A DNA stretch of 24,468 nt from a virus: positions 1-24,468 of the IMG/VR virus record IMGVR_UViG_3300042327_000512; one strand, given 5' to 3'. The notes beneath the pieces were generated by a model. The model ran no database searches, was not told where the DNA came from, and was given only the letters and a program-made list of their open reading frames with translations. Positions within the stretch are counted from its first letter, which is position 1. Every line of letters starts with the position of its first letter. Shown one piece after another: positions 7,070-23,621 of the stretch. The translations under genes were made by a program, and so were the position numbers.

Positions 7070-9226
7070 ATGACAATTATTATCAATGGAAGCAATACAC
7101 CTACAGCCGGTGCTGTCGCAGTAGGTGACGGTACGACTTTAAAATTTACTGCGGCAGGACTAAGCGGGCAAGTTTTGCAAAGCAATGGGGCAAATATGCC
7201 TACATGGGTTGCTAATGATTTGGGTTCAGTCACTTCTGTAGCTATGACCGTACCGACCGGATTGTCGGTCACTGGCTCGCCAATTACATCATCGGGAACT
7301 TTGGCAGTTTCTTTGCAAAGTGGCTATTCAATTCCAACAACAGCAAGTCAAACAAATTGGGATTCTGCTTATACGCAAAGGCTTCAATGGGATGGTAGCG
7401 CGACAAATTTGGTTGCGGCAACGGGTCGCACATCTTTGGCACTTGGAACAATAGCAACGCAAGATGCGTCAAGCGTTGCAATTACAGGCGGTAGCGTTAC
7501 GGGAATTACTGACCTAGCTGTTGTCGATGGCGGCACAGGCGCAAGCAATATATCTGATGCTAGAACTAATCTTGGCGCGGCTTCATCTGCAACAACAATT
7601 AGCACGGGCACAGGCTTGTCGGGCGGCGGCGACTTAACAGCTAACCGAACTTTATCTATTGCAAATACTGCCGTTACTGCCGGTGCGTTTGGTTCTGCAT
7701 CTGACGCACTTACAGCAACCGTTAATGCTCAAGGTCAACTTACCGCTTTGGCGGCAATACCAATCGCAATTGCAAATACTCAGGTCAGCGGCTTGGGTAC
7801 GATGTCAACGCAAACGTCAAGTGGCGTAACAATTACGGGCGGCTCAATCACAGGCATTACTGACCTTGCAATTGCCGATGGCGGCACGGGCGCATCCGAT
7901 GCCCCAACTGCTAGAAGTAATCTTGGTTTAGGTACTGCCGCGGTGTTAACCGCCGGTTCTGCTAATGGCGTTGCAACGCTTGATGCGGGCGGCACAGTAC
8001 CACTTGCACAATTACCGGCTTCAATTCAAGGCGGTGTTTCGTATCAAGGTTCATGGAACGCGGCAACAAACATTCCCGCATTAACATCTAGCGTTGGAAC
8101 AAAAGGTTTTTACTACGTTGTTGCAACATCAGGCACAACTAATCTGAACGGTATTACTGATTGGTTGGTAGGCGATTGGGCAATTTTTAATGGCTCAGTT
8201 TGGGAGAAAATAGATAACACCGACAATGTGGCAAGCGTTAACGGCTACACAGGCGTTGTTGTTCTTGCCGCAAGTGACGTTGGCGCGCCGCCAACAAGCC
8301 GCGCAGTTAGCGCAGGGACGGGATTAAGTGGCGGCGGCGACCTAACTACCAATCGCACAATTTCAATTGCAAATACAGCGGTTACAGCCGCTTCATACGG
8401 TACAGCAAGTGCAGTACCAAGTTTTACCGTCAATGGTCAAGGTCAATTAACTGCGGCCTCTGATGTAACTATTGCAATTGCAAATACACAAGTTTCGGGT
8501 TTGGGTACGATGTCAACCCAAGCGGCTTCAAATGTTTTAATTACAGGCGGTTCAATTTCAGGCATTACCGATTTAGCGATTACTGATGGTGGAACAGGCG
8601 CAAGCACAGCGCAAGGCGCAATGAATTCATTTGCGGGTGCAGTTACAAGCGGTTCATATTTACGCGGCAACGGCACAAATGTAGTAATGAATACTATTCA
8701 AGTGGCAGATGTACCTACCCTTAACCAAAACACAACAGGCACGGCGGCTAACGTCACAGGCACGGTTGCGCTTTTAAATGGTGGAACTGGTGCAACAACT
8801 GCACCGGCGGCTAGAACGGCACTTGGTGCAACAACATTAGGTTCAAACCTTTTCACAATCACAAATCCTAGCGCAATAACTTTTCCACGCTTAAACGCTG
8901 ATAACACGGTTTCTGCTTTAGATGCGCCAACATTCAGGGGTGCAATTGGTGCGGGTACGGGTAACGGTTCGGTCACAAGCATTACTGTTACAGCGGGTAC
9001 AGGAATGTCGGGTGGCGGCACAGTATCTACAAGCGGCACAGTCACTTTGACTAACGCGGGCGTTACAAGTATTGGTGCGGGTACGGGTATATCTGTAAAC
9101 GCATCAACAGGCGGCGTAACAGTAACAAATAGCGGCGTTACTTCTGTTAACGGTGCTACCGGTGCGGTAACAGTGGCGGCGGGTTCACAAGCGTTTGTTG
9201 CTTTCGGTTCTACCGGCGGCTATTAA
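7070..9226 (+). CDS. Long repetitive tail fibre protein, 718 aa
   Basis: A highly repetitive fibre shaft. A 22-residue phrase beginning ITGGS(V/I) and ending DGGTGAS occurs at residues 138, 255 and 491. GTGLSGGGDL-TNRT, IAIANTQVSGLGTMSTQ and LNGGTGAT/DGGTGAS-type phrases recur between them. Phage fibres use such repeats to build trimeric beta shafts. Near residues 335-385 a non-repeat island (YQGSWNAATNIPALTSSVGTKG and following, NGITDWLVGDWAIFN) is a common fibre insert. The end (SGTVTLTNAGV, AFVAFGSTGGY) leads straight into the cassette array. Antisense ORFs across this gene are by-products of its composition. Confidence 0.82.
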   Translation: MTIIINGSNTPTAGAVAVGDGTTLKFTAAGLSGQVLQSNGANMPTWVANDLGSVTSVAMTVPTGLSVTGSPITSSGTLAVSLQSGYSIPTTASQTNWDSAYTQRLQWDGSATNLVAATGRTSLALGTIATQDASSVAITGGSVTGITDLAVVDGGTGASNISDARTNLGAASSATTISTGTGLSGGGDLTANRTLSIANTAVTAGAFGSASDALTATVNAQGQLTALAAIPIAIANTQVSGLGTMSTQTSSGVTITGGSITGITDLAIADGGTGASDAPTARSNLGLGTAAVLTAGSANGVATLDAGGTVPLAQLPASIQGGVSYQGSWNAATNIPALTSSVGTKGFYYVVATSGTTNLNGITDWLVGDWAIFNGSVWEKIDNTDNVASVNGYTGVVVLAASDVGAPPTSRAVSAGTGLSGGGDLTTNRTISIANTAVTAASYGTASAVPSFTVNGQGQLTAASDVTIAIANTQVSGLGTMSTQAASNVLITGGSISGITDLAITDGGTGASTAQGAMNSFAGAVTSGSYLRGNGTNVVMNTIQVADVPTLNQNTTGTAANVTGTVALLNGGTGATTAPAARTALGATTLGSNLFTITNPSAITFPRLNADNTVSALDAPTFRGAIGAGTGNGSVTSITVTAGTGMSGGGTVSTSGTVTLTNAGVTSIGAGTGISVNASTGGVTVTNSGVTSVNGATGAVTVAAGSQAFVAFGSTGGY

Positions 9227-9235
9227 GGATAAAAC

Positions 9236-9760
9236 ATGGCACAAACAATTGCAATGCAACGTGGAACAGTATCAACTAATTGGACTGTAAATGCAACTAG
9301 TGCGTCAACAACAACACTATTTACGCAATCAGGAGGAATTGCTACAAGGGTGATTTGTAACTCTTTAGCAGTTAATACAAATTACAATGGTTCAGGTAAT
9401 ATTATTTTTTACTTAACCAATGCGTCAGGTGTATCTGTTCCAATTGGTGCGTGTAGACAAGGTAGTTCTTGGTTTAATGTTGCTATATTGCCATCAGAAG
9501 TTCAAGGCGTTGGTGTTGGCTCTGCATATTTTCAAGGCTCTGCTTTTTTTCAACAACAAAACGCGTCAGTTACGTCTTTTGGTCTAGCAAATCCAAATCA
9601 AACTATTGGCGGGTCAGTAAGTGACCCAACTCATATGGTGTATTTTCCTAAAAATATATGGATGGGAAATGGAGATTCAATAACTGTTAGAGGTTTTGTT
9701 CATTCAACAGCGACTACAACTTCTGTTGATTTTAATTTTACTACTATCACAGAATCTTAA
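9236..9760 (+). CDS. Cassette protein A1, putative receptor-binding tip, 174 aa
   Basis: First of three paralogues with A2 (10060) and A3 (10899). All share the N-terminus M(A/P)QT(I/V)AMQRG, an early QSGG-ATRVI-N-L block, a late PKN-W-G-GDS block and the C-terminus FTTITE(S/T), while the central part differs strongly. This pattern of constant ends and a variable core fits a beta-sandwich receptor-binding or virion-surface domain under diversifying selection. AAGGA precedes ATG 9236, and the B1 partner follows after 8 bases. The DNA looks more AT-rich than the fibre genes upstream. The function is inferred from position after the long fibre and from this pattern. Confidence 0.7.
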   Translation: MAQTIAMQRGTVSTNWTVNATSASTTTLFTQSGGIATRVICNSLAVNTNYNGSGNIIFYLTNASGVSVPIGACRQGSSWFNVAILPSEVQGVGVGSAYFQGSAFFQQQNASVTSFGLANPNQTIGGSVSDPTHMVYFPKNIWMGNGDSITVRGFVHSTATTTSVDFNFTTITES

Positions 9761-9768
9761 GGAATAAA

Positions 9769-10050
9769 ATGTTTTCTATTGCTTACAACAAACAAACTAA
9801 ATTTATTCTGTACTGGCGTTACGATGATGTCGTAAATGTAGAAAAGCTAACAGCGCAACAACATTTGAGCGTTTATTGCAACAACAATAATTTAGACGCA
9901 AACAATTACACGGCAATTGAATTGCCTTGGAATCCTAAAGCGCAATATGTCATTGGACGCGACAAGTTTGATGAATCAGAAAATCGCATTTATGCTGACA
10001 CTGATTGGGTTGCGCCTGTTGAAGCGCTCTTACCTACACCTACAGAATAA
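9769..10050 (+). CDS. Cassette protein B1, small partner of A1, 93 aa
   Basis: First of three paralogues (B2 10617, B3 11420). Shared features are a start MF(S/T/V)I-Y-KQ, a charged middle, a (K/R)-F/LY---NRI/GLI--D-DY/W segment near residues 65-80 and a Pro/Glu-rich end. The protein is small, soluble and acidic, with no signal peptide or membrane segment. Each B gene follows its A gene by 8-11 bases with its own SD, as tail-fibre-assembly chaperones follow their fibre genes. A cognate chaperone or tip-associated role is inferred. An overlapping out-of-frame ORF from 9917 is judged spurious. Confidence 0.68.
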   Translation: MFSIAYNKQTKFILYWRYDDVVNVEKLTAQQHLSVYCNNNNLDANNYTAIELPWNPKAQYVIGRDKFDESENRIYADTDWVAPVEALLPTPTE

Positions 10051-10059
10051 GGAATCGTT

Positions 10060-10605
10060 ATGCCACAAACAATTGCAATGCAAAGAGGGTCTATGGCGGG
10101 TACTTTTAACGGCACAACAGAACACCTTATATTTCAACAATCAGGCGGAAATGCAACTCGCGTTATTTTTAACGCTTTGTCCTGTTGGTCGGGTAGCAGT
10201 TCAGGTGGTTTTTTTAATCTTATGTTGTCAGTTACAAATAGTGGAACATCTGTAATTTTGCCTGTTGCAATAAAAATGAGTTCTGCGGCTATTGGTTCTG
10301 GCGGGATGTTTTTTTTGCCTGACACCTCAGGGATTGTTAGTGGGGCAACTAAAATGAGTTCAGAAGCCACTGCGAGCGCTCAAACTATTGTTGTTGCGTC
10401 AGGTAGTAATTGGCCCGCACCTAATGATCTTTTTATTACGGGAGGTGGAGTCTCACAAAATTCAAGTAACTCAAATTCAGCGTTTGAATTTTGTCCAAAA
10501 AACTTTTGGATAGGTTCAGGTGATTCTGTTATTTTGCGAGCTAAAACTACAAGCAATATATCAGGAACAATTGGTTGGAGTTTTACTACTATTACAGAAA
10601 CTTAA
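10060..10605 (+). CDS. Cassette protein A2, putative receptor-binding tip, 181 aa
   Basis: Paralogue of A1 and A3. The N-terminus MPQTIAMQRG, QSGGNATRVIFNAL, FCPKNFWIGSGDS and the final SFTTITET align with them, while residues about 45-145 are unrelated in detail (Ser/Gly-rich, with SGGMFFLPDTSG). The AAGGAATCGTT ribosome region precedes ATG 10060, 9 bases after the B1 stop. As for A1, a surface or receptor-binding beta domain is the most economical reading; no enzymatic motif is visible. Confidence 0.7.
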   Translation: MPQTIAMQRGSMAGTFNGTTEHLIFQQSGGNATRVIFNALSCWSGSSSGGFFNLMLSVTNSGTSVILPVAIKMSSAAIGSGGMFFLPDTSGIVSGATKMSSEATASAQTIVVASGSNWPAPNDLFITGGGVSQNSSNSNSAFEFCPKNFWIGSGDSVILRAKTTSNISGTIGWSFTTITET

Positions 10606-10616
10606 CAGGATAATTT

Positions 10617-10889
10617 ATGTTTACTATTGCTTATTCAAAACAATCAAAAAAAATTGTATTTGCTCGTTACGACCAAGGGCCAACTGTAGCTGTAGATTTT
10701 TATTTTAATCAACATTGTGAAATCAATAATCTAGACAAGCATGAATACATTGTTCTTGAATATGCTTACGACAAAACGCTACTTGTTGAAATTGGCAAGC
10801 ACATTTTTAACCCCGTAACCGGTCTAATTGAAGTTGACCCGCTTTACATTGCCCCCGCACCGGTTGAACCAACTGTTGCTACAGAATAA
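10617..10889 (+). CDS. Cassette protein B2, small partner of A2, 90 aa
   Basis: Paralogue of B1 and B3: MFTIAYSKQSKKIVFARYD at the start, then a helix-prone middle (FNQHCEINNLDKHEY) and IGKHIFNPVTGLIEVDPLYI near the end, followed by a Pro/Val-rich tail. An AGGATAA site lies before ATG 10617. The start and the DPLYI-type end are the parts conserved among copies. This suggests one face docks to the constant ends of A while another varies, which is inference. Confidence 0.68.
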   Translation: MFTIAYSKQSKKIVFARYDQGPTVAVDFYFNQHCEINNLDKHEYIVLEYAYDKTLLVEIGKHIFNPVTGLIEVDPLYIAPAPVEPTVATE

Positions 10890-10898
10890 GGATTCATC

Positions 10899-11408
10899 AT
10901 GGCACAAACAGTAGCAATGCAACGTGGAACAGGCTCAATTGCGAACAATACATTTGCGACATTGTTTACACAATCCGGCGGTATAGCAACGCGAGTAATT
11001 CTTAATCAATTGACATGGTATTTTGGTACTGGAAATCTTGACTATCCACAAGTAAACCTTGTCCATTTGTCATCTACTGGCGCATCAAGCGTTATTGGTT
11101 ATTGGCAATGGTTTACGCTTACTGGCGCAAGACAAGGGCAAATTATGCCAACTCCAAATTCTTCGCCTCTTGAAAGGCTTAGTAATGGTTGGTCAAGCGT
11201 TTCAGGAACAAGCGGAAGTAACTCTAATCAATGGATAGGTGCAACATCAGGACTTAATACTGGTGTAGCCGATGGCACAATTAGGTCATATATGCCACAA
11301 AACTGTTGGATTGGGCCGAGTGATTCGCTAAGACTCGTATTTACTGAGGGTTCGGGTTCTTTTACTATGACGTATGGTTATAGCTTTACAACTATTACAG
11401 AAACTTGA
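10899..11408 (+). CDS. Cassette protein A3, putative receptor-binding tip, 169 aa
   Basis: Third A paralogue: MAQTVAMQRGT, LFTQSGGIATRVILNQL, MPQNCWIGPSDS and SFTTITET. It shares LFTQSGGIATRVI with A1 more closely than with A2. The core contains several aromatic residues (WYFGTGNLDYP, WQWFTLTG), unlike A1 and A2. AAGGATTCATC precedes ATG 10899, 9 bases after B2. The end-conserved, core-variable pattern is clearest between A1 and A3. Confidence 0.7.
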   Translation: MAQTVAMQRGTGSIANNTFATLFTQSGGIATRVILNQLTWYFGTGNLDYPQVNLVHLSSTGASSVIGYWQWFTLTGARQGQIMPTPNSSPLERLSNGWSSVSGTSGSNSNQWIGATSGLNTGVADGTIRSYMPQNCWIGPSDSLRLVFTEGSGSFTMTYGYSFTTITET

Positions 11409-11419
11409 TGGGATAAATT

Positions 11420-11683
11420 ATGTTTGTAATTTTTTACGATAAACAATCTTCAGAAGTTTTGGGGTTTCGTCATGATCTCTCTACAAATCCTTTAACAGCA
11501 ATTGAAGTTTTTGCACGATATTTAAATGATGAAAACAAAAGCCAAGCTAACACTAGCCATGCTGAAATTACATTTCAAAATTTACAATTTGATAAAAGTA
11601 AATACTTATACAACAAAGTGAATAACATAATTAATTTGAACCCTGACTATATTGAACCGATACCACAAGAAAGTACACCATGA
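11420..11683 (+). CDS. Cassette protein B3, small partner of A3, 87 aa
   Basis: Third and most diverged B paralogue: MFVIFYDKQSSEVLGFRHD at the start and KSKYLYNKVNNIINLNPDYI near the end, keeping the hydrophobic-x-KQ start and the (D/N)PDYI/DPLYI/DTDWV position. A GGGATAA ribosome site lies before ATG 11420. Its stop overlaps the ATG of the next small gene (ATGA at 11680), so the array is translationally tied to the 49-aa gene downstream. Confidence 0.65.
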   Translation: MFVIFYDKQSSEVLGFRHDLSTNPLTAIEVFARYLNDENKSQANTSHAEITFQNLQFDKSKYLYNKVNNIINLNPDYIEPIPQESTP

Positions 11684-11829
11684 ATTTACAACTGCCAATT
11701 GAAACAGCAAACCAAATTTTGGCTTATTTAGCTACGCGACCTTATCAAGAAGTTTTCCAATTTATTCATGCGATGCAAAATGCGGCAACATCAAAGCCAA
11801 CATTGCCAATTGAAAAAACAGTTGAATAG
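11680..11829 (+). CDS. Small protein of unknown function, 49 aa
   Basis: ATG 11680 overlaps the stop of B3 in an ATGA, so translation is probably coupled. The product begins MNLQLPIETANQILAYLATR, continues YQEVFQFIHAMQ and ends in a Thr/Glu-rich tail, TLPIEKTVE. Two short amphipathic helices are likely, with no membrane segment. I do not recognise a function. Its place between the fibre cassettes and the lysis region fits a small late-expressed phage protein. Confidence 0.6.
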   Translation: MNLQLPIETANQILAYLATRPYQEVFQFIHAMQNAATSKPTLPIEKTVE

Positions 11830-11866
11830 ATTTTGTACATTTATCAAAACTACCTTTTAGGCGTTT

Positions 11867-12037
11867 ATGAACGAAGTAGAAGCAAGGCTAAACAGCCACG
11901 AAGAAATTTGCACCCTACGGTATGAAATGCTTTGTGCGCGTATCAAACGCTTAGAAGGTATTTTGATTAAGGCTTGCGGCGCAATGTTGCTTGGCATGAC
12001 CGGCGTTATCTATTCATCGCTAACGCTTTTAAAGTAA
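11867..12037 (+). CDS. Small single-pass membrane protein, candidate holin/lysis accessory, 56 aa
   Basis: Starts at ATG 11867. Residues about 1-33 are charged and helical (MNEVEARLNSHEEICTLRYE), and about 34-54 form one hydrophobic segment (ACGAMLLGMTGVIYSSLTLL). This XhlA-like plan of an N-terminal amphipathic helix plus a C-terminal membrane helix is typical of small lysis accessory proteins. It opens the lysis region. A clearer holin lies at 13824, so this may be a helper, an antiholin-like protein or an unrelated membrane peptide. Confidence 0.6.
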   Translation: MNEVEARLNSHEEICTLRYEMLCARIKRLEGILIKACGAMLLGMTGVIYSSLTLLK

Positions 12038-12051
12038 AAGTGAGGCTAGGA

Positions 12052-12801
12052 ATGGTCACGGCTAAAAAGACAGCACCAAAGGCCATTAAAGCCCCTGCAA
12101 AGGTAGCGCCGGTTAAACGTGCTACTGCCAAAACGCAAGTCAATGTAACGGTAGCGCCGCCGGTTGCCGCATCCCCTGCCCCATCAGCGCCTAAGAAAGA
12201 CGATTCAGCATTGGGCAAAGTAATCGGCCTTATCGAATGGGTAGATAACCCGTTTAAGTTATTTACGGTCATTTTGTTGTCGGCCCTGTTCTTTGCCGGT
12301 TACTTTGCTTGGGATAGCCGCCAAGTAATCTTGCACGCAATCACCACGCAAGACAAAATGCCGCAACTTGCAAAGCAAGAAGATTTAATACCGCCCGCCA
12401 AGTCATTGCTAAAAGATGTTGACGGTTTAGTGCTACTGGTTCACAAAGCAAACTTAGCAAGCAATTCGCGCACGACTGTATTGGCATTAAATGCTGACGG
12501 TACGCGAGAAAAGGCAATAGAAGGCACGGTTACATCCCTGTTTAACGCATCTGCTGACCGTAATTCTGCAATGGTTGCAATGCTTAACGGCGAAATACTT
12601 TGCGAAGAATTTAACCCGTCAAGCAAAGTTGGCGAATGGGGCGTTAAGCAAGGCGTAAAGTTTATGTGCCGCGGTAGCATCCCGCCGGACATGGGCAAGT
12701 TTGCCGGATACGTTGCCATCGGTTTTAAAGACAAAGTAGAAGATATTGCCGCGCTTAAAACACGCATCAACCTAGCCGCTACGGACATGGCCGATGAATG
12801 A
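12052..12801 (+). CDS. Membrane-anchored protein with basic N-terminal tail, 249 aa
   Basis: ATG 12052 is chosen over an upstream in-frame start because it follows AGGCTAGGA and the previous gene's stop by 14 bases. Residues 1-50 are Lys/Ala/Pro-rich, like histone tails. About 69-87 is one membrane segment (LFTVILLSALFFAGYFAW), followed by a soluble domain of about 160 residues with two cysteines (FNGEILCEEF region and FMCRG). The topology suggests an inner-membrane protein with a nucleic-acid- or envelope-facing tail. The family is not recognised. Its place in the lysis region suggests a role in lysis control or membrane attachment. The stop overlaps the next start (ATGA at 12798). Confidence 0.7.
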   Translation: MVTAKKTAPKAIKAPAKVAPVKRATAKTQVNVTVAPPVAASPAPSAPKKDDSALGKVIGLIEWVDNPFKLFTVILLSALFFAGYFAWDSRQVILHAITTQDKMPQLAKQEDLIPPAKSLLKDVDGLVLLVHKANLASNSRTTVLALNADGTREKAIEGTVTSLFNASADRNSAMVAMLNGEILCEEFNPSSKVGEWGVKQGVKFMCRGSIPPDMGKFAGYVAIGFKDKVEDIAALKTRINLAATDMADE

Positions 12802-13073
12802 AGTGGCTCATACTTTTATTTGTATTGGTGATTGCCGGTGCGGTCGCCAAAGATGGATGTCATGTGCGCGAGTTTTACGGCATCGGCTACACGGTACATG
12901 ACCCAACAGAACGCTATTTAAAAATGATGGCGTGGTTAAAGACAAACGCGCCGTACTGCAAGCAAGCTGATTATGTATTGATGTTTAACAATTTGGCGCA
13001 TTGGGCGGGTACTGCCGACAACTTAACTTTGCGCGAGGCAATTATCAAAGGATATTCGAAGGCCAAGCAATGA
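12798..13073 (+). CDS. Small exported protein, 91 aa
   Basis: ATG 12798 overlaps the upstream stop. The first 17 residues (MKWLILLFVLVIAGAVA) form a signal peptide with likely cleavage after AVA. The mature part begins KDGCHVREFYG and has two cysteines (21 and 54), which could form a disulfide in the periplasm. No lipobox is present at the right place, so it is not an obvious Rz1-like lipoprotein. It may be a periplasmic lysis or exclusion factor; the function is unknown. The stop again overlaps the following ATG. Confidence 0.65.
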   Translation: MKWLILLFVLVIAGAVAKDGCHVREFYGIGYTVHDPTERYLKMMAWLKTNAPYCKQADYVLMFNNLAHWAGTADNLTLREAIIKGYSKAKQ

Positions 13074-13306
13074 TTATTTTAGACAAATGGTATCCCGTTG
13101 TGATGCCTAAAAATGAAATCAGAAGTATTGCCTTTGAAAAAGCCGTGGAAAAAGCGCAAGAACAATACAGGCAAGCACTTAACGCGCACAAAGTGTCGTT
13201 AGAGAAATACGAATATGACGTTGAACTTTATAACAAACGCGCACGGGTAAACACAATCGAATTAGAAATGTTTAGCGACCGTAGGCGATTTCAAATCTTT
13301 GTATAA
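13070..13306 (+). CDS. Small charged coiled-coil protein, 78 aa
   Basis: Start ATG 13070 (ATGA overlap with the previous stop) is preferred to an upstream in-frame start inside the neighbouring gene. After MIILDKWYPVVMPKNEIR, most of the protein is one long charged helix (FEKAVEKAQEQYRQALNAHK, then EKYEYDVELYNKRA) with coiled-coil character. There is no membrane segment. It lies just before the endolysin. The function is unknown; a structural or lysis-accessory role is possible. Confidence 0.6.
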   Translation: MIILDKWYPVVMPKNEIRSIAFEKAVEKAQEQYRQALNAHKVSLEKYEYDVELYNKRARVNTIELEMFSDRRRFQIFV

Positions 13307-13314
13307 GGATAATC

Positions 13315-13827
13315 ATGGCAGATTTTTTACCCGCATTTGAATTGATGTTGAAAGATGAAGGCGGCTACAAATTGCACGATGTAGAGGGCGATACCGGCGG
13401 CATGACCTACGCGGGCATTGCACGCAATAAAAACCCGCACTGGAAAGGTTGGCCCTACATTGACAGCAAAGAAACAGGCGGGCCGTTAACAGGCTTAGTG
13501 CGCGACTTCTACAAGCAAGAATTTTGGGACAAGATGCGCGGCGATGAAATACGCGAACAGGACATTGCTAACAGCATATTTAACTTTGGCGTAAACGCGG
13601 GCATGGGCATGGCAGTTAAGTTAGCCCAACTGGTTGTTAACGCTACACCCGATGGCGGCATTGGCCCTAAAACTGTTGAACTGCTAAACCAACAAAACGC
13701 AAGCGATTTCCGCAAATCCTACGCGCTAACAAAGATTGCTAGGTACGCTGAAATCTGCAACAAGAACCGCACCCAATCAAAGTTTTTATTGGGTTGGATT
13801 AACCGAACAATGGCGGGGTTGAAATGA
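13315..13827 (+). CDS. Endolysin, GH108-type N-acetylmuramidase
   Basis: 170 residues behind an AAGGA ribosome site. The N-terminal GH108 domain has the active-site pattern EGGY at 15-18, with Glu15 the expected catalytic acid, followed by D-GG-T-AGI (about 25-36). FKQEFW-type and NFGVNAG segments follow. The C-terminal half (about 95-170, TPDGGIGPKT and a helical end) matches the peptidoglycan-binding part usual in this family. It hydrolyses the glycan strands of the cell wall at lysis. No signal peptide is present, so release depends on a holin, here the adjacent overlapping gene. Confidence 0.9.
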   Translation: MADFLPAFELMLKDEGGYKLHDVEGDTGGMTYAGIARNKNPHWKGWPYIDSKETGGPLTGLVRDFYKQEFWDKMRGDEIREQDIANSIFNFGVNAGMGMAVKLAQLVVNATPDGGIGPKTVELLNQQNASDFRKSYALTKIARYAEICNKNRTQSKFLLGWINRTMAGLK

Positions 13828-14261
13828 ATTTACTAAACATAGGTAGCATCATCGAATCGGTCGGCAAGGTTGCGGGCGACTTAATCACAACCGACAAAGA
13901 ACGGTTGGAGATGGAAATAGAAAACCGCAAGCTAGATTTAGAAGAAAAGCGATTAGACCAAGCGGGCGACATGGCGCAGATTAGCGTCAACAAAGAAGAA
14001 GCTAAGAACCAAAACTTGTTTGTAAGTGGTTGGCGACCCGCGGTAGGTTGGATTGGTGCAACCGCCCTAGCCTATCAATTTCTTGCCTACCCTTTGCTTG
14101 GTTGGTTTTGGAAATGGGGTCAGGCAACCGGTTTAGTGCCGCCTGAACTATCGCCCCCGCCTTTACTTGATGCCGAACAACTTTGGGTTATGTTGTCGGG
14201 CATCTTGGGCATTGCGGGTATGCGTAGCTTTGAAAAGTCAAAAGGGGTTGCTACTAAGTAG
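13824..14261 (+). CDS. Holin of the gene-transfer-agent type (GTA_holin-like)
   Basis: 145 residues, starting at ATG 13824 which overlaps the endolysin stop. The N-terminal half (about 20-65) is a charged coiled coil (KERLEMEIENRKLDLEEKR). The C-terminal half holds membrane segments at about 72-97 (VGWIGATALAYQFLAYPLLG) and 118-134 (EQLWVMLSGILGIAGM). FVSGWRPAVGWIG and the GMRSFEK end are hallmarks of the 3TM GTA-release holin family. It would permeabilise the inner membrane to let the endolysin through. Its last bases overlap the convergent RecT gene tail to tail. Confidence 0.85.
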   Translation: MNLLNIGSIIESVGKVAGDLITTDKERLEMEIENRKLDLEEKRLDQAGDMAQISVNKEEAKNQNLFVSGWRPAVGWIGATALAYQFLAYPLLGWFWKWGQATGLVPPELSPPPLLDAEQLWVMLSGILGIAGMRSFEKSKGVATK

Positions 14262-15213
14262 CCGCGCCAAGCGCACGAATACGCTGTTGGTATGCTTGTG
14301 TATGCCTAGCCCTAACAACGGTGTCAATGGCCTTTAACATAGGTTCGTTGGCCTCTTTAAGTTCACGCAACAATGTCATGCGTTCCCGTGCCGGACGCGC
14401 ACCGGCTTGCGCTGTCTTTTCGGCAATGTTTTCGTAACCATCTTGCCAAGCCTCTAACGACTCAAAGTATGCGTGCGGCGTATCTTTGTTTGGCACGAAC
14501 AAGGGAAATTGCGTGGCAACTATTTCGGGTTGACTTTCTACAACGTCCGGTTCTACAACTTCATCATCTTGCCGGAACGCTTCTTCTATGACCATCGGGT
14601 CAATTGTTTGTTCGGGTATGACAACCTTGCTAGGCGCAACCAAATCAAGCGGGTTAGCGGGTTTGGCAACTGGTGCGGGTAATTGACTTTCTACGAAATC
14701 TTGCGCTTCTTCACTTGTAATTAAGCCGCGCAGAACATCGGGAAACGCATCGCGCAAAGCAAAGCCACGCGCACGCATTTGCATCATGCGCTTGGGGTAC
14801 ATCGACCACGGGCCTTGTTTGCCCCACAAGCCCGCCCGCCTTGCGTCATCGATGCCAAACTTAACCGTCACGGCCTTGCGCCCTTTGCGCCGCGCTACGC
14901 AAACAGCTACAGGGTTTGGCGTTCCCTCGGCCTCGAAATATTCTTCTACATCTTCACAAACGCTAGAGGCTTGCACAAGGGCCATTGCCGCATCGCCGTA
15001 GATGCTAGGTTTACCATTGATGACCGCTATGTTTTGCAAGGCTTGCAAGGGCGCTAAACCGATTTCACAACCCCATTGCACGCAAACTAAAACATCTTCA
15101 GGCTTGCCTTGAAACTGTTTAGGAATCATTGACGAACTTGCCAACATTTCGCTAAAGGAAATGGCCTCTGACAGCGTGGTGGGGGCAAAGGATTTGTTAG
15201 TGCTTAACTGCAT
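14254..15213 (-). CDS. recT: RecT-family single-strand annealing protein
   Basis: The annealing core (about 20-175) is clear: MIPKQFQGKPEDVLVCVQWG, then EIGLAPLQALQNIAVINGKP, and the family signature DDARRAGLWGKQGPWSMYPK followed by RMMQMRARGFALRDAFPDVL. Residues about 180-240 are an acidic, Pro-rich linker, and the rest is a helical tail. Start ATG 15213 is preferred because GAGG lies 6 bases upstream; an in-frame ATG at 15225 has no good site. With the YqaJ-type exonuclease two genes upstream it forms a phage exonuclease/annealase recombination pair. It overlaps the 59-aa gene before it and, convergently, the holin gene. Confidence 0.92.
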   Translation of the reverse strand: MQLSTNKSFAPTTLSEAISFSEMLASSSMIPKQFQGKPEDVLVCVQWGCEIGLAPLQALQNIAVINGKPSIYGDAAMALVQASSVCEDVEEYFEAEGTPNPVAVCVARRKGRKAVTVKFGIDDARRAGLWGKQGPWSMYPKRMMQMRARGFALRDAFPDVLRGLITSEEAQDFVESQLPAPVAKPANPLDLVAPSKVVIPEQTIDPMVIEEAFRQDDEVVEPDVVESQPEIVATQFPLFVPNKDTPHAYFESLEAWQDGYENIAEKTAQAGARPARERMTLLRELKEANEPMLKAIDTVVRARHTQAYQQRIRALGAAT

Positions 15214-15376
15214 TGTCGGCCTCATCGTTATCTAATTCTTCTGAAATGGTTGCAATAACTAAAGTGGCGATGGCCTCGACCGCGGCTTCAGCTACTTCAC
15301 GCGGCATTTCAGGCGATGCTTGCATCATTGTTTGAACCGCCATTTGGTAAGCGGCTTGAATTCTTGTTTGATTCAT
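15197..15376 (-). CDS. Small acidic helical protein, 59 aa, between exonuclease and annealase
   Basis: An ORF of 59 residues whose ATG (15376) overlaps the exonuclease stop in an ATGA and whose 3' end overlaps the RecT start by 17 bases. Sequence: MNQTRIQAAYQMAVQTMMQA, PEMPREVAEAAVEAIATLVI, then an acidic tail (EELDNDEADNAVKH). It is mainly alpha-helical. The tight coupling on both sides suggests a partner of the recombinase pair, but no known family is recognised. Confidence 0.65.
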   Translation of the reverse strand: MNQTRIQAAYQMAVQTMMQASPEMPREVAEAAVEAIATLVIATISEELDNDEADNAVKH

Positions 15377-16329
15377 GCTGATAATTCCTTAATACTTATG
15401 TTTGATTGGCGTACTGAATATGCTTTGCGTGCGGGCATTAGTTTTTCCGGCGCATCTTTGTAATTTCGCATGGGCCAAGCAATAATCATTTGCCCTGCCC
15501 TTGCTTTTTCAGCATCACCAAGCATTTGCTTTAGCTTCATTTCTGCATCGTCAATCGCCGACTCGCAAGCCGCAATCACTAACTTTTTGTCTAAAATTGT
15601 TTGTGCCAATTCAATAGCTTTGCCATTTAGTTCTATTTCTTCTTTGTGCGCCGTTGGAAACAGGCGGTTTACTTCTGCGCTTGTTGTCGGTGCGTACCAA
15701 TCTAGTTCGCCCGTTGCGCTGTACTTGTCTAACTTGCTTTGAAATTCAAGCACGGCCTTAGTAATGGCTTTTTGGGTTTCGTAATGAACCGCAAACAGGA
15801 ACACGCGCAATTGCATACCCGAATACAGTACGCAAACAGCGCCCCATTGATGGCCTGTCACAAGCATTTGCCCTTGCAATTGAATTGGGCCGCGGGCAAG
15901 GTCGGGCGTATCTTCAGGGTAGGCTTTAGTTAGCTTGGCCTCTAAAACCCCCGTGCCGCGCAAAACAATGCTTTCTTGACCAACGACATAAATGCCCTTG
16001 GCAGGGTCGCTAACAATGGTTTGGCCCTCGCCCTCGCCTATCCCGTCCAATGAGCATTGAAGGGGCAAGCAAGCGTGCGTATAGGCTTGCCGTATGTCGG
16101 TGTCAAACATTTTGATGCCCAACCTTTTTGCTGACTCAGCCAAAATGACCGGCTCAAGGGTATTCCCCCACGACATCGCTTCATTGCCAATGTCGGGGCG
16201 TTCTAAACCATCAATGGCATTAAAGCTGTATTGAAGTTCATCATTGGGGCTTGAATATTTCGAGTAGCCCATCAAAGCGGGTAAGCGGCTTGCGCTCATC
16301 GACTTATCGTTTGTTAATTTTCCCGCCAT
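15373..16329 (-). CDS. YqaJ-type recombination exonuclease
   Basis: 318 residues. The N-terminal SASRLPALMGYSKYSSPNDE and MSWGNTLEP motif (Glu59) start the YqaJ/lambda-exo fold. SLDG (Asp95), LEAKLT (Glu130-x-Lys132) and QLQGQM (Gln152) supply the rest of the PD-(D/E)XK active site, and GHQWGAVCVLYSG follows as in the family. The C-terminal 100 residues are helical and charged. It degrades double-stranded ends to give 3' tails for the RecT partner downstream. The order YqaJ, 59-aa protein, RecT makes a recombination operon. Confidence 0.88.
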   Translation of the reverse strand: MAGKLTNDKSMSASRLPALMGYSKYSSPNDELQYSFNAIDGLERPDIGNEAMSWGNTLEPVILAESAKRLGIKMFDTDIRQAYTHACLPLQCSLDGIGEGEGQTIVSDPAKGIYVVGQESIVLRGTGVLEAKLTKAYPEDTPDLARGPIQLQGQMLVTGHQWGAVCVLYSGMQLRVFLFAVHYETQKAITKAVLEFQSKLDKYSATGELDWYAPTTSAEVNRLFPTAHKEEIELNGKAIELAQTILDKKLVIAACESAIDDAEMKLKQMLGDAEKARAGQMIIAWPMRNYKDAPEKLMPARKAYSVRQSNISIKELSA

Positions 16330-16341
16330 TTTTAGGTGTCC

Positions 16342-16635
16342 TTAATCTGTGAGGGCGTAAACGCGAACAATGCGTGCGTGGGCTTCTTTGTGATTGGCCT
16401 CGCACATCCCAATTTTTTTAAATGCCTTAGTTCTGAACACCGCGCCAAGCACGCTAGGGTTTACCCCTGCCGGTACTTGTAGGTGTTTACGAACATCATT
16501 GATTGAAACTTCACCATTGCGTTTGGCTATCTGCATGGCAAGGGAACGGCAACTATTGAGAAAGTCAGCGTCCCTAACTTCAAACATATCTAGCTGTTGA
16601 TCGCGTAATTGTTGGCCTAAAGTTGGGTTAAGCAT
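16342..16635 (-). CDS. Small winged-helix-like protein, 97 aa
   Basis: ATG 16635 is preferred over a TTG start 70 codons upstream, because AAGAGG lies 6-7 bases before it and it overlaps the preceding stop by 8 bases. Residues about 35-95 (AKRNGEVSINDVRKHLQVP, SVLGAVFRTKAFKKIG, HARIVRVYAL) have the helix-turn-helix-wing pattern of small phage DNA-associated proteins. It sits directly upstream of the exonuclease by 12 bases. A DNA-binding or recombination accessory role is likely, though no name is certain. Confidence 0.65.
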   Translation of the reverse strand: MLNPTLGQQLRDQQLDMFEVRDADFLNSCRSLAMQIAKRNGEVSINDVRKHLQVPAGVNPSVLGAVFRTKAFKKIGMCEANHKEAHARIVRVYALTD

Positions 16636-16816
16636 GGGTAGCCTCTTTAGGTGTTTTAGCCCGCTTGACGGTGCTTTTGGCTTCTTCATTGGCAATAACT
16701 TCAGCCAAGGGCATCCAACCAAACTTGCGCCAAGTGCATTGAATGTCAGTAAGTGCCGCGGGTTTGTACTCGCATCCCTGCGCGAGTGATTTTGTCGGGA
16801 ATGTGATTTTCTGCAT
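16628..16816 (-). CDS. Small basic protein, 62 aa
   Basis: Starts at ATG 16816, one base after the preceding stop (TAA-A-ATG), which argues for coupled translation; a TTG 11 codons upstream is less likely. The sequence MQKITFPTKSLAQGCEYKP, then W-KFGWMPLAEV and a Lys/Ala/Thr-rich end (KSTVKRAKTPKEATHA). No known family is recognised. It is part of the recombination operon, and its stop lies inside the next gene's start region. Confidence 0.5.
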   Translation of the reverse strand: MQKITFPTKSLAQGCEYKPAALTDIQCTWRKFGWMPLAEVIANEEAKSTVKRAKTPKEATHA

Positions 16817-16817
16817 T

Positions 16818-17192
16818 TTAGGAAAACAGAAAAACAGACAAACAAACAATCAGAATTGATGCCCCGAAGCCAAAAGCTACCCCTAGTTTTTCGACCCTAG
16901 TTTCGCTGTCTGACCGATGGTGCAAATTGGCTTGGCAATCTGCAAATACATCGTAAGATGTAATGCCTTGATATTGAAGCGTTTTAGGCTTTTCACGCCC
17001 TATTTGGGGACGCATTAAAGCTATGTTTTCTAGCTTTTTTTGTACATTTCCCAAACACCATTGGTAGTGTTTTTCGGTTTGATAAACACTATATACATCG
17101 TATAAAGTAGGAATTCTATAATCCTGTTTTGCAGATTTTCTAAAGCTAGAACCCGCTTTAACAAACCCCGACTGCATTATGTTTTTAAACAC
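16818..17192 (-). CDS. Tail-anchored membrane protein, 124 aa
   Basis: GTG 17192 is chosen because AAGGGG lies 6 bases upstream; the in-frame ATG at 17177 lacks a site. Residues 1-100 are soluble (YRIPTLYDVYSVYQTEKHY, a helical middle, then SYDVFADCQANLHH). About 103-124 is one hydrophobic C-terminal segment (LGVAFGFGASILIVCLSVFL), predicting a tail anchor. The stop is one base before the next ATG. No family is recognised. A membrane-anchored member heading a recombination operon is unusual. Confidence 0.65.
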   Translation of the reverse strand: MFKNIMQSGFVKAGSSFRKSAKQDYRIPTLYDVYSVYQTEKHYQWCLGNVQKKLENIALMRPQIGREKPKTLQYQGITSYDVFADCQANLHHRSDSETRVEKLGVAFGFGASILIVCLSVFLFS

Positions 17193-17283
17193 TTTTTGCC
17201 CCTTTTAGTTAAAAATACAAGTTAACGTGAATACTTAGTACAAAACCCCAACCCCAACTGACCCGAAAACGCTACCTATAGTG

Positions 17284-17300
17284 ATGGCACATCATGCCAT
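17284..17300. repeat. Inverted repeat ATGGCA-5-TGCCAT
   Basis: A perfect 6-bp stem with a 5-base loop lies in the 132-base gap between the 17325 gene and the GTG at 17192, followed on the plus strand by TTTT. Since the flanking genes run on the minus strand, it is more likely an operator or mRNA hairpin than their terminator. Confidence 0.4.
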
Positions 17301-17324
17301 TTTTACCCCTGTAAAGGTCATTAT

Positions 17325-17909
17325 TTACCTATAACCAATCGCTGTTTTCTTGACCGCAAAATTCACTACCTTTGCATCCTTTTTGGCTTCAGAAAGCGAC
17401 CCTAACGACACATCGCTAAAGTCAATAACGGGCTTAGATTTAGCCGCCTTTCTATCCTGTTTCGCCCGTGCATCTGAAATATCTTTAGCCCGTTTGGTGC
17501 TAATACCTTTCATGGCATTTTCTAGGTCTAACTTCAATTGCTTTTGCATTAACTTTTCAGACCTTGCGTGTAGTGCTTCGGCGGCTAGCTTTTCTTTGGC
17601 CCTTAGTAAGAACGATTTGCTACTAACATATTTAAGTTGAAATTGCGAATCGGCAAACAACTGCCTAGCCAACATGACACGAATAATGGGGTCGCCCTCG
17701 ACTTCATAGGCAAAATGCTGAACTTTCTGATTTAACTCAGAAATGATGACCGCGCACTTTTTTAGTTCTTCCAAACTGGTAATTCTGAAATCCAACCGGC
17801 AACCTACAGGCCGACCCGACTTCACCAAATACTCGCCCAACTTGTTTTCATCGCTTGGGAAAATCTGCGCCCAATTGACGATTTCTTTATAGTCCGGTTC
17901 ATTTTTCAT
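17325..17909 (-). CDS. Unknown charged, coiled-coil protein, 194 aa
   Basis: ATG 17909 has TTTGGAG about 10 bases upstream. The N-terminal part (about 1-85) is mixed alpha/beta (IVNWAQIFPSDENKLGEYLV, GCRLDFRITSLEELKK). Residues about 95-150 are a Lys/Glu/Ala-rich helix (RAKEKLAAEALHARSEKLMQ), and the tail is basic. There is no membrane segment or catalytic motif. It is the first gene after a palindrome-rich regulatory gap and may be co-transcribed with the recombination operon, although a 132-base gap follows it. The function is not recognised. Confidence 0.6.
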   Translation of the reverse strand: MKNEPDYKEIVNWAQIFPSDENKLGEYLVKSGRPVGCRLDFRITSLEELKKCAVIISELNQKVQHFAYEVEGDPIIRVMLARQLFADSQFQLKYVSSKSFLLRAKEKLAAEALHARSEKLMQKQLKLDLENAMKGISTKRAKDISDARAKQDRKAAKSKPVIDFSDVSLGSLSEAKKDAKVVNFAVKKTAIGYR

Positions 17910-18001
17910 TGTTTTTCGTCTCCAAATACACTGTCAACTTTGGTACTACTCCATCAATAAATTCTCGAAAATAAAATTTATATTGAATTGACGTTTTACA
18001 C

Positions 18002-18080
18002 ACATTTGACACATTGATATACATACCGTTAAAAATCCCCATGTTGGTGCAGGGTTTTGTAATCAACATTTGACACAATG
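18002..18080. repeat. Two 15-bp direct repeats ACATTTGACACA(T/A)TG
   Basis: Copies at 18002-18016 and 18066-18080 differ at one base and lie 64 bases apart. The second copy sits inside a perfect inverted repeat (AACATT-6-AATGTT, 18065-18082). They occupy the gap between the recombinase-like gene and the 17909 gene, where that gene's promoter should be. Confidence 0.65.
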
Positions 18081-18082
18081 TT

Positions 18083-18133
18083 TGTTCCTATATAGGGAAC
18101 ATTTATAAGAACACTGTTCTTGTATAAAGAACA
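18083..18133. promoter_or_regulatory. GTTC/GAAC palindrome cluster, candidate operator array
   Basis: Two 19-bp imperfect palindromes, TGTTCCTATATAGGGAACA (18083-18101) and TGTTCTTGTATAAAGAACA (18115-18133), lie 32 bases apart, about three helical turns. Between them AAGAAC-ACT-GTTCTT (18107-18121) makes a third perfect inverted repeat. The array starts directly after another palindrome (18065-18082) and ends one base before the recombinase-like gene's stop codon. It lies upstream of the minus-strand gene at 17909. An operator array or a resolution-type site is inferred. Confidence 0.6.
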
Positions 18134-18134
18134 T

Positions 18135-18800
18135 TTATTTAATCCGTTTCAGCAAATTTTTAACTTGCGTAGGCGACCAAGTATCAAAGCCGCGTGGTGT
18201 CAGTAGGCCATCTTTGGCAAAGGCCGCGGCAATATCACGCAAGGTACTGGCCTTAGATTTCTTAATGATTTGGCGCACCATTGGGGCAACCCTTTCGGCG
18301 AACGCATCGGCCTTGGCTACGTTGACCACGTTACCCGCCGCTGAACCGATTTCCGGTGTTCCTGACCCTAACTTAACGCCCTGCTTCTTTAGCTTGGCTA
18401 ACGCGGCTTTAGTGCGTTCCCCAATGCGTTCTGCTTCCCAATGTGCGAACACTTGACGCATCTTTAACATTTCCCGCGTGGCTACCGGTAAGTCAACGCA
18501 AATGAAATTGACTTTTGGGTCATCTAGCAACAAATCACTAAAAGCCATGTCGCGGTTTAGCTTGTCTAAAGATGCAATCAACAACTTTGCTTTTTGCTTC
18601 TTACAAACACCGATAGCCGAAACCAATGCCGGTCGGGTTTTCTTGTGCCTTACTTCATTCTCTATGAAGTCAGCTATGACTTTGCCGTTGTGTTTCTCAA
18701 TAAACTCAATGACTTTTGTTTTTTGAGTGCCAAGTGAATTAGCAGTTTTATTTTTTTCAAATTGCCGGTAGTAAGCAACAAATGTTTTGTTAGTAAACAT
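18135..18800 (-). CDS. Serine-recombinase family protein lacking the catalytic serine
   Basis: 221 residues with the resolvase fold order: a start strand FVAYYRQ, SLGTQ (about 22-26), KTRPAL (retaining an arginine of the active site), LDKLNRD (normally LDRLxRD) and AERIGERTKAALAKLKKQGVKLG (the long E helix). A C-terminal helix-turn-helix follows (about 183-220: STLRDIAAAFAKDG, WSPTQVKNLLKR). The usual Y-x-R-V-S-T is YYRQFE: Arg12 is kept, but the nucleophile position is Phe14. One arginine of LDRL is lysine. It should therefore not cleave DNA by the normal route and may act as a DNA-binding regulator. It lies beside a palindrome cluster. The 29 bases before it hold AGAG 6 bases from ATG 18800. 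Confidence 0.85.
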   Translation of the reverse strand: MFTNKTFVAYYRQFEKNKTANSLGTQKTKVIEFIEKHNGKVIADFIENEVRHKKTRPALVSAIGVCKKQKAKLLIASLDKLNRDMAFSDLLLDDPKVNFICVDLPVATREMLKMRQVFAHWEAERIGERTKAALAKLKKQGVKLGSGTPEIGSAAGNVVNVAKADAFAERVAPMVRQIIKKSKASTLRDIAAAFAKDGLLTPRGFDTWSPTQVKNLLKRIK

Positions 18801-18829
18801 GGTGTTCTCTTATCTTGTATTGGTAGTGT

Positions 18830-19036
18830 TTAAACATTCAAAAAAGTATTGTCACGAACGGCATAAAAAACATCTTGCAATGCTATGTATTCGCCGTAAG
18901 CAACAACGCGGTCAAAATCGGTTCTGTCTTTAATTTGGTTTGTACCGTTGTCAGATACAAAGCCCCAAATCTTTTCCATCTTTGCAATTTGCGATTGCAA
19001 TTCGTTTAGTAGGTTTTCTTTGCTAAAGCGAATCAT
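18830..19036 (-). CDS. Small protein of unknown function, 68 aa
   Basis: The last of three coupled small genes; its ATG (19036) overlaps the previous stop (ATGA). The sequence MIRFSKENLLNELQSQIAKM suggests a helical start. FDRVVAYGEYIALQDVFYAV follows, with no membrane segment or known motif. It ends 29 bases before the recombinase-like gene, so both are probably on one transcript. Confidence 0.6.
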   Translation of the reverse strand: MIRFSKENLLNELQSQIAKMEKIWGFVSDNGTNQIKDRTDFDRVVAYGEYIALQDVFYAVRDNTFLNV

Positions 19037-19245
19037 GATGTTGTTACCCCTTTAGGTAGTTCTGAAAATTCAGCCAAAGTGACAATACGCATCACGCCTT
19101 TGTCAACCAAGTGCGTGTAGTTTTTTCTGACAACCCAACGAATTGCTTGCAATGATGTGCAGGGAATCGTTACGTCTTTCCATGTGTTATTGAATTCATC
19201 AAGATGCACAACAACGTGATCTTTTTTGCTAGATGATCTTTTCAT
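19033..19245 (-). CDS. Small protein of unknown function, 70 aa
   Basis: The middle gene of the coupled trio, with ATGA overlaps on both sides. It begins MKRSSSKKDHVVVHLDEFNN (basic, then a short beta stretch), continues TSLQAIRWVVRKNYTHLVDKG and ends LAEFSELPKGVTTS. The composition suggests a compact alpha/beta fold. No family is recognised. Confidence 0.6.
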   Translation of the reverse strand: MKRSSSKKDHVVVHLDEFNNTWKDVTIPCTSLQAIRWVVRKNYTHLVDKGVMRIVTLAEFSELPKGVTTS

Positions 19246-19451
19246 TTGTTGCCTAAATTGATTGCTTGTGTACCGGCTTTTTCAGCTTCTTCACGGCTAT
19301 TAAAAACTGCGCTAATAACAATGTTCTTTGGGCCACGGGCGTAAACCCAACCGCCAAGTTTTTTGTTTTCAACAATGCGAATTAACCATTCGCTTTGGCT
19401 TGCTTTACGGGGCTTTTTGTTTCTATGCAAGATTTCGGGGCTAGGTATCAT
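19242..19451 (-). CDS. Small protein of unknown function, 69 aa
   Basis: The first gene of the trio behind leader module L1, with ATG 19451 and AAAGGA 7 bases upstream. The N-terminus is basic (HRNKKPRKASQSEW), then LIRIVENKKLGGWVYARG and ISAVFNSREEAEKAGTQ suggest a small beta-beta-alpha domain. It couples by ATGA to the next gene. No family is recognised. Control by the shared promoter/leader suggests early expression together with the genes at 19953 and 20516. Confidence 0.62.
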   Translation of the reverse strand: MIPSPEILHRNKKPRKASQSEWLIRIVENKKLGGWVYARGPKNIVISAVFNSREEAEKAGTQAINLGNK

Positions 19452-19459
19452 TTAAAAAT

Positions 19460-19529
19460 CCTTTGGCATAAACAGCCGGTTGTTTTGTACACAGCCCAAT
19501 TGTATATCAGGTGTATATCGTTTGTACAA
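19460..19529 (-). promoter_or_regulatory. Promoter/leader module copy L1
   Basis: Read on the minus strand: a TTGTACAA box (19522-19529), TGATATACAATTGGG (19495-19509), which fits an extended -10 (TG-A-TATACA), a GTGTACAAAA stretch, then GGCTGTTTATGCCAAAGG (19460-19477) carrying the SD for ATG 19451. L2 and L3 share the same order. Confidence 0.65.
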
Positions 19530-19554
19530 TCTTTTTTAAATATATTTTTGCAGG

Positions 19555-19566
19555 GCCTAATTAGGC
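19555..19566 (-). terminator. Possible weak terminator hairpin after the 19953 gene
   Basis: GCCTAATTAGGC is a perfect palindrome overlapping the stop codon of the Cys/His gene, followed on the minus strand by GCAAAAATATATTT. The hairpin is short and lacks an immediate T-run, so termination is uncertain. Confidence 0.3.
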
Positions 19567-19953
19567 TTTCGCCCAATAGCCGTAAACCATCCGATGCGTG
19601 CAATCAAAGATGTCATTGGCAACCCCATCAATGACCGCCACAAAGTGATGCGCCTGATGCGCTATGACCACGCCCCTAGGCATATCAGAACAACGCGCCT
19701 TGCGCCCGTCAAACTTAGGTGCTGACTTCCAAACCCAACCGTGTTTTTTAAGAACGTCTGTATAGATGTCTTTGCCGATGCCGTTACGCGCTGACTTTGC
19801 TTTGCCAACATTTGCATTGGCTTGCGCTAATTCTTTATAAACAGCTTGGTAGTCAAGGCCCAACGCAATAGCCATTGCCCTAGCACCACAATCACCGGCA
19901 GTACCTTTGTACCCTGCCGCTTTGCGACCGCCATCATTAAATAAGTATTTCAT
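19561..19953 (-). CDS. Papain-like (Cys/His) fold protein, 130 aa
   Basis: ATG 19953 is used because AAAGGG lies 5 bases upstream; an in-frame upstream start would run back through the leader. The protein starts with a Gly-rich segment then AGDCGARAMAIALGLDYQAVY, placing Cys22 at the N-cap of a helix as in papain-like peptidases. HHFVAVIDGVANDIFDC follows, with His102/103 and a late Asp/Asn. This arrangement is common in small phage proteins with a C39/papain-like fold. Activity as a peptidase, transglutaminase-like enzyme or binding-only protein is not decided. It stands alone under leader L2, with L1 starting 32 bases after its stop. Confidence 0.72.
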   Translation of the reverse strand: MKYLFNDGGRKAAGYKGTAGDCGARAMAIALGLDYQAVYKELAQANANVGKAKSARNGIGKDIYTDVLKKHGWVWKSAPKFDGRKARCSDMPRGVVIAHQAHHFVAVIDGVANDIFDCTHRMVYGYWAKA

Positions 19954-19959
19954 AAAAAC

Positions 19960-20028
19960 CCTTTCGGCATAAACAGCCTTTGTTTGTACAAGACCCAATT
20001 GTATATCACTTATTTGGGATTTGTACAG
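19960..20028 (-). promoter_or_regulatory. Promoter/leader module copy L2
   Basis: On the minus strand: CTGTACAA (20021-20028), TGATATACAATTGGG (19994-20008), TTGTACAA (19984-19991), then GGCTGTTTATGCCGAAAGG (19960-19978) and ATG 19953. An AT-rich run (AAAATATATTTTTAAA) lies just upstream, as it does in L1. Confidence 0.65.
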
Positions 20029-20047
20029 TAATTTAAAAATATATTTT

Positions 20048-20064
20048 GGGGGGTCTAAGCCCCC
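20048..20064 (-). terminator. GC hairpin after the 20516 gene, probable terminator
   Basis: On the minus strand GGGGG-CTTAGA-CCCCCC forms a 5-bp all-GC stem, six bases after the stop of the preceding gene, followed by AAAATATATTTTT. The delayed T-run makes it a weaker intrinsic terminator. It would separate the 20516 gene from the L2 promoter. Confidence 0.5.
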
Positions 20065-20069
20065 TACCC

Positions 20070-20516: not shown

Positions 20517-20522
20517 ATATTT

Positions 20523-20580
20523 CCTTTTGGCGTTAACAGCCTGTCTGTGTATATGTCCCAATTGTATATCACTTTGTACG
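20523..20580 (-). promoter_or_regulatory. Promoter/leader module copy L3
   Basis: On the minus strand: CGTACAA (20574-20580), TGATATACAATTGGG (20557-20571), then GGCTGTTAACGCCAAAAGG (20523-20541) and ATG 20516. The box spacing (15 bases) equals L2. Unlike L1 and L2, the leader has AAC where they have TAT, so the internal ATG is absent. Confidence 0.65.
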
Positions 20581-20655
20581 TTTGTATATAGCCCAAAGGG
20601 TTCATTTGACTAGGATATACCCTTGGTTTTAAAAATAATTTTCACATTGTTGTAT

Positions 20656-20663
20656 TTGTACAA
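20656..20663. promoter_or_regulatory. TTGTACAA palindrome upstream of the RHH gene
   Basis: A perfect 8-bp palindrome lies 45 bases before ATG 20708, in the divergent control region. Identical 8-mers lie at 19522-19529 and 19984-19991, and near copies at 20021-20028 and 19485-19492. These are candidate binding sites for a regulator such as the adjacent RHH protein. Confidence 0.45.
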
Positions 20664-20707
20664 TCCCCAAATGCTACATTTGTTCTATATCTTTTTGAAA
20701 TACACCA

Positions 20708-23366: not shown

Positions 23367-23445
23367 GTTTACTACGCAAAACCCAAAATCACAGAAATTG
23401 CCGCAATGGGTTTCGCAGAACTAGAAATTTAGAAATAATTTAAAC

Positions 23446-23586: not shown

Positions 23587-23621
23587 TACACAAACAAGTT
23601 TTTTAACCAAAGGAGATAGCA

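Follow-up and report, generated by a model that had tools for sequence, protein, structure and literature searches.

A 24,468-base virus record, analysed here over its whole length and referred to as the window, carries three tandem copies of a gene pair, A and B, directly behind a single fibre gene. The record is a fragment and belongs to a freshwater-type bacterial virus. The best explanation for this arrangement, to which we assign a probability of roughly 0.7, is that A is a plug-in receptor-binding tip and B its dedicated minimal chaperone, with the three cassettes serving one shaft. The fibre gene (7070-9226, + strand) encodes a protein of 718 aa with PHROG tail and tail-fibre matches, the C-terminus of which, SQAFVAFGSTGGY, is the proposed socket for A. 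The codons of this conserved end (AFVAFGSTGGY and the stop; 9191-9226, + strand) were delineated by the IMG/VR motif scan described below, and among the window ORFs the motif was found in this fibre gene alone.

Six intact ORFs, all on the + strand, follow in the order A1-B1-A2-B2-A3-B3. The A genes at 9236-9760 (A1, 174 aa), 10060-10605 (A2, 181 aa) and 10899-11408 (A3, 169 aa) encode predicted tip proteins, and the B genes at 9769-10050 (B1, 93 aa), 10617-10889 (B2, 90 aa) and 11420-11683 (B3, 87 aa) encode predicted minimal tail-fibre chaperones. A1 begins 9 nt past the fibre stop, the gaps between the six genes are 8-11 nt, and a ribosome-site-like sequence precedes each of them. A repeat finder recovered a 52-nt direct repeat comprising this site and the start of A (9224-9275, + strand), with further copies at 10048-10099 (67%) and 10887-10938 (87%) and a start-to-start spacing of 824 and 839. 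The same spacings had been given in a preliminary description of this DNA, which placed three tandem A/B pairs with constant A ends and variable cores at 9236-11683. The six ORFs do lie there, and the pairs are as described, but the fibre gene at 7070-9226 belongs to the array too.

Sequence comparison of A1-A3 gave identities of 50-68% in the first 40 residues, 9-18% in the 88-residue core, which is chance level, and 37-45% in the last 41 residues. The motifs M(A/P)QT-AMQRG, QSGG-ATRVI, P(K/Q)N-W-G and FTTITE(S/T) are all present, although the third, first described as PKN throughout, reads PQN in A3. A degenerate DNA pattern of the C-terminal motif of A matched three times in the window against 0 matches in 100 shuffles. 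Across 30 A sequences conservation was 0.82 at residues 1-10, about 0.2-0.4 at residues 41-130, and 0.84 at the end. The B proteins begin with starts common to all three, as had also been reported, and are mutually 26-33% identical overall. A1 and A3 showed an excess of identical codons at the A borders (9/9 against about 5 expected), a number of codons too small to claim homogenisation of the borders at the DNA level.

Constant ends around variable cores might also arise by programmed diversification through an invertible segment or a diversity-generating retroelement, and the window does encode a resolvase-type N-terminal domain (PF00239, 1.3e-14) in a protein of 221 aa (18135-18800, - strand). 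We regard this origin as extremely improbable. All the cassettes run in the same direction and no convincing inverted repeats were found flanking them, whereas a Mu/P1-type invertible arrangement has cassettes in opposite orientation, inverted crossover sites and a serine invertase. Close to its start, the resolvase-fold protein has YYRQF in place of the usual YxRxS serine motif, and it may be an unusual recombinase or else have a resolvase fold without catalytic activity. The 24.5-kb fragment contains no match to a reverse transcriptase (PF00078), and the cores of A differ through many indels, not scattered substitutions.

A3 and B2 were modelled with AlphaFold. The A3 model (pLDDT 83, pTM 0.78) is a 12-strand sandwich in which the best-predicted strands are the conserved ends, and from this model a jelly-roll fold of the TNF/C1q type is predicted for A. 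Its structural neighbours were TNF/C1q-type jelly rolls and related sandwiches with Z scores of 7-10. Scores in this range are common among sandwiches, lying at background or close to it, and indicate the type of fold, not the function. Trimeric jelly rolls were found among these matches (KHP40 cement and adiponectin, both Z 8.8), as were the short-tail-fibre domain of cyanophage A-1(L) (Z 7.6) and the spike petal of phi812. Glycine makes up 8-14% of A, with at most isolated GGG or GGGG runs and without a poly-glycine lattice. Neither A nor B could be placed in a convincing family in PHROGs, Pfam or sequence profiles of solved structures. A tblastn search of INPHARED phage records with A1, A3, the A of two relatives and the B of one relative gave no relatives, and no relative of A was confirmed among GTDB genome contigs.

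The B proteins are 87-106 aa in length, and the B2 model (pLDDT 89) contains one helix (residues 26-36) and no C-terminal helices. When B2 was compared with 335 chains aligned in detail, the first two ranks were both taken by tail-fibre chaperone structures, namely Mu Tfa (5yvq_B; Z 4.7, rmsd 1.7 over 54 residues, 20% identity) and a chain of the Pam3 fibre complex (7ypx_a; Z 3.9), each with a modest score. A Foldseek search of B2 against the PDB returned nothing below E 0.8, B1-B3 gave no Pfam Tfa or tail-assembly match and weak, scattered matches in PHROGs, and a profile search of solved structures with B returned no Tfa chain. As the C-terminal alpha-helical trimerisation domain of the Tfa type is absent from B, both at these lengths and in the B2 model, and as no sequence family match was obtained, B cannot be assigned as a member of Tfa. 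The folds predicted for B2 and for A fit well with a chaperone/tip pair, and B is likely to be a fibre chaperone, the client of which would be A. An 86-aa protein behind a different fibre in one relative (L133:7467-7727) weakly matches the B profile at its end (YLYVNGSW-NPAWIDPT-V), which hints that the family of minimal fibre partners extends further.

To place the array among other viruses, IMG/VR was scanned with an A profile, a degenerate DNA pattern of QSGG-ATRVI and a pattern of the fibre end. Leaving aside the population of the window itself, these scans yielded 34 contigs from about 27 lineages. In these lineages A starts 9-21 nt after a fibre gene, and the fibre nearly always ends in a motif like QAFVAFGSTGGF (xFxAFG(S/T)xGG or AFVAFGSTGG type), which is present in L110 and L116, partly changed in L128 and different in L133. 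B lies directly 3' of A in 24 of the 25 lineages whose contig extends past A, the exception being L004, and a single profile covers each family; the homologues of A and of B in other genomes are thus linked, not scattered single genes. An independent search of IMG/VR with the fibre-end pattern found 14 contigs, and A was directly downstream in all 14. This result, together with the linkage of A and B, indicates that the two genes and the fibre end make up a single module. Counting cassettes in relatives, a check suggested in the preliminary description, revealed the array to be rare, since the fibre-A-B unit is nearly always single-copy in the 27 other lineages. The only other array is that of L133, in which a pair of A genes, with 65% likeness across the 113 residues available, adjoin without a B between them at the contig end.

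Related phages offered an opportunity to observe how these modules change. In the pairs L130/L006, L128/L125, L113/L125 and L005/L011, DNA identity is about 70-87% on one or both flanks, while the A core shows 44-49% identity where aligned, the level of unrelated DNA. Whole cores have thus been replaced, and the exchange of cores inside conserved borders that had been proposed from the window is borne out in its relatives. In L130/L006 identity is 79% around the A start and 80% over the last 65 nt of A, the whole of B and the sequence past it, and in L113/L125 it is 81% until about 120 nt into A and 79% again from the last 27 nt of A. Conversely, L120/L122 and L134/L114 have kept the A/B unit but differ in the 3' part of the fibre. 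Taken together, the core-swapped and the fibre-swapped pairs show that the module is a mosaic whose joints lie in three places: the end of the fibre, the borders of A, and B. At the site of the array, phages with 93-97% likeness in the downstream gene at 11974 have quite other fibre modules, some of them with built-in fibre ends, and none of the other 79 relatives of this gene has an A in the DNA examined. The whole site is thus a fibre exchange site.

The earlier proposal that each tip has its own partner was upheld in part. By predicted fold and linkage, A resembles a separate fibre tip and B a fibre chaperone, but a strict one-to-one pairing is not supported. B is still 66-78% identical in L130/L006 and L128/L113 while the A core has been replaced, and its persistence across a change of core suggests that cognate A-B pairing is loose. 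The B of L128 groups firmly with those of L125, L109 and L113, in contrast to its A, which sits on a long branch. B similarity follows the A core over the A start (partial correlation 0.65 versus 0.11), and the link between B and the A core is weak among distant pairs (0.28).

These exchanges also bear on whether A might be a decoration or accessory structural protein, such as a fibre cap that is not receptor-binding, and B an unrelated small virion protein. Jelly rolls are also known in cement proteins and spore fibres, and the score of B to chaperones is low. However, a hypervariable core between constant mounting ends, replaced between close relatives, fits receptor recognition, and the two best structural matches of B are both fibre chaperones; a decoration role is therefore quite unlikely.

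Phylogenetic trees were used to analyse the origin of the array. The window copies formed no clade in either the A tree or the B tree (0/200 bootstrap trees each), and the well-supported branches of the two trees force at least two changes. A2 is sister to the A of phage L010 (100/100), its nearest relative at 59%; the L010 gene comes immediately after a fibre resembling that of the window. B3 groups with the B of L006 and L130 (97/95). As the window copies are not each other's nearest relatives in either tree, the array appears to have been assembled from different phages. Judged from these trees, it was probably built from separate lineages and not by recent duplication. Recent tandem duplication was rejected, as the copies are no closer to one another than to the genes of other phages. 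The simplest reading is that separate lineages contributed the cassettes, and an old duplication followed by later losses is a possible alternative. These ancestries also speak to the idea that the three A proteins are fixed subunits of one hetero-oligomeric tip, for example a heterotrimer, and not alternatives. Three diverged copies with common ends would match the trimeric nature of tail fibres, and the jelly-roll neighbours of A include trimers. Subunits of one complex should co-diverge, however, whereas the copies here have separate ancestries, and other lineages carry one A, or in L133 two or more. We thus consider a hetero-oligomeric tip highly unlikely.

The chief rival to the tip/chaperone explanation is that the array serves as a store, with one cassette used at a time. 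Only the first cassette behind the fibre would be used efficiently, and recombination between the border repeats would promote or delete cassettes. The 52-nt direct repeats at spacings of 824 and 839 would permit this, and in L010 the nearest relative of A2 is the gene that comes first after a similar fibre. The window also has the RecT/YqaJ pair that the preliminary description named as a possible promoter of such exchange (RecT, phrog_561, 4.7e-49; YqaJ exonuclease, PF09588, 6.5e-9), which we located at 14254-16329 on the - strand. In contrast, the ribosome-site-like sequences and tight spacing of all six genes point to joint translation, and no rearranged form was seen, the sole other contig of the same population beginning inside A3. 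On balance, a store is unlikely. The contig in question, L012 (IMGVR_UViG_3300042519_001082, 13226 bases), differed from the window by 1 mismatch in the 9556 nt compared. It corresponds to window positions 11243-24468, starting inside the A3 core and, judging from its length, stopping at the last base of the window. That the two stop together may reflect a genome terminus or the end of an assembly graph.

Under the tip/chaperone explanation, each A would be a polypeptide of its own, a small receptor-binding tip of jelly-roll fold that attaches to the AFVAFGSTGG-type end of the upstream fibre shaft. Its conserved N- and C-terminal strands would provide the mounting and the oligomer core, and its variable middle the exposed surface for recognition of the host. 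B would act as a minimal Tfa-like chaperone, consisting of the fibre-binding beta-sandwich without the helical trimerisation domain, which aids folding and loading of the neighbouring A and then leaves. With one shaft and three cassettes from different lineages, three different tips become possible. If the shaft is able to take any of them and all are loaded, mixed virions or mixed fibres would result, and the host range would be wider or hedged. Recombination in or near the conserved borders would swap both cores and cassettes. As A2 and A3 are preceded by a B and not by a fibre, their docking on the same shaft is assumed. The modest structural scores, the absence of a Pfam tail-assembly match for B, the loose A-B pairing and the adjoining A genes of L133 without a B count against the tip/chaperone reading. 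Tentatively, and at somewhat less than even odds, we envisage a socket fibre whose fixed docking end serves a growing array of tip-plus-chaperone cassettes captured from other phages, so that a single genotype would yield particles of several host specificities at the same time, with neither inversion nor reverse transcription involved.

Several known systems share parts of this arrangement. Phage Mu encodes alternative receptor-binding ends, gpS and S', each with its own chaperone gene (gpU, a Tfa protein, and U') directly downstream, each end being fused to the shaft and inversion switching between them. The best structural match of the B2 model is Mu Tfa (5YVQ, at a modest Z of 4.7), but B is without the helical C-terminal domain, and the predicted tips here, unlike those of Mu, are separate proteins encoded in direct orientation without an inversion apparatus. 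In cyanophage Pam3, the chaperone gp25 grips a TNF-like fibre head through its N-terminal beta-sandwich, a TfaMu-like domain (rmsd 3.0 over 48 residues), and trimerises through a helical domain of about 100 residues at its C-terminus (PMC9608196). The present pair is like Pam3 gp24/gp25 in combining a predicted TNF-like tip with a putative beta-sandwich chaperone, of which B would have the first part only, and unlike it in that A is separate from the shaft, whereas the Pam3 head and shaft form one protein. The T2/S16/PP01-type gp38 of the Straboviridae is a separate adhesin on the fibre tip, encoded after the fibre gene gp37, with constant and hypervariable regions (PMC12892980, PMC13340146). 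A is likewise a separate protein encoded right behind the fibre gene, but in contrast to the poly-glycine sandwich of gp38 it is a predicted jelly roll with 8-14% glycine, has a dedicated partner gene downstream and occurs in a unit present three times. Ackermannviridae carry several receptor-binding proteins per virion, TSP1-4, exchanged via conserved N-terminal domains (PMC11414711); in place of such a branched tail-spike complex, homologous small tips would here share one shaft. In how it would work, the module combines features of T2-type gp38 tips with those of Mu-type fibre ends that have their own chaperone, but by the tests made it belongs to neither group. No precedent for tandem tip/chaperone arrays on one shaft was found in the largely non-subscription literature searched.

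If correct, the tip/chaperone reading would add a third way, besides inversion cassettes and branched spike clusters, to keep several host-recognition specificities. The short docking motif and the small tip family (about 28 lineages including the window) would then flag receptor-binding modules of environmental phages from sequence alone, and the display of several tips at once by one virion population would become directly testable.

Two further proteins were observed downstream of the module in relatives. A conserved cupin-like protein of about 130 aa (HPEIAVSCVSSVYVRQMHFKK-GD-E-GHSHQFDHQTL), not present in the window, lies directly 3' of B in several of them (L005:8870-9253, L006:8874-9263, L007:2209-2610 and L011:8862-9242). 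A protein with a family 2 glycosyltransferase-like start (MKIAVYAISKNEEQFVKRFC...) was found behind the fibre module at L015:4915-6048, L019:6727-7854 and L006:9281-10324, and perhaps modifies the fibres.
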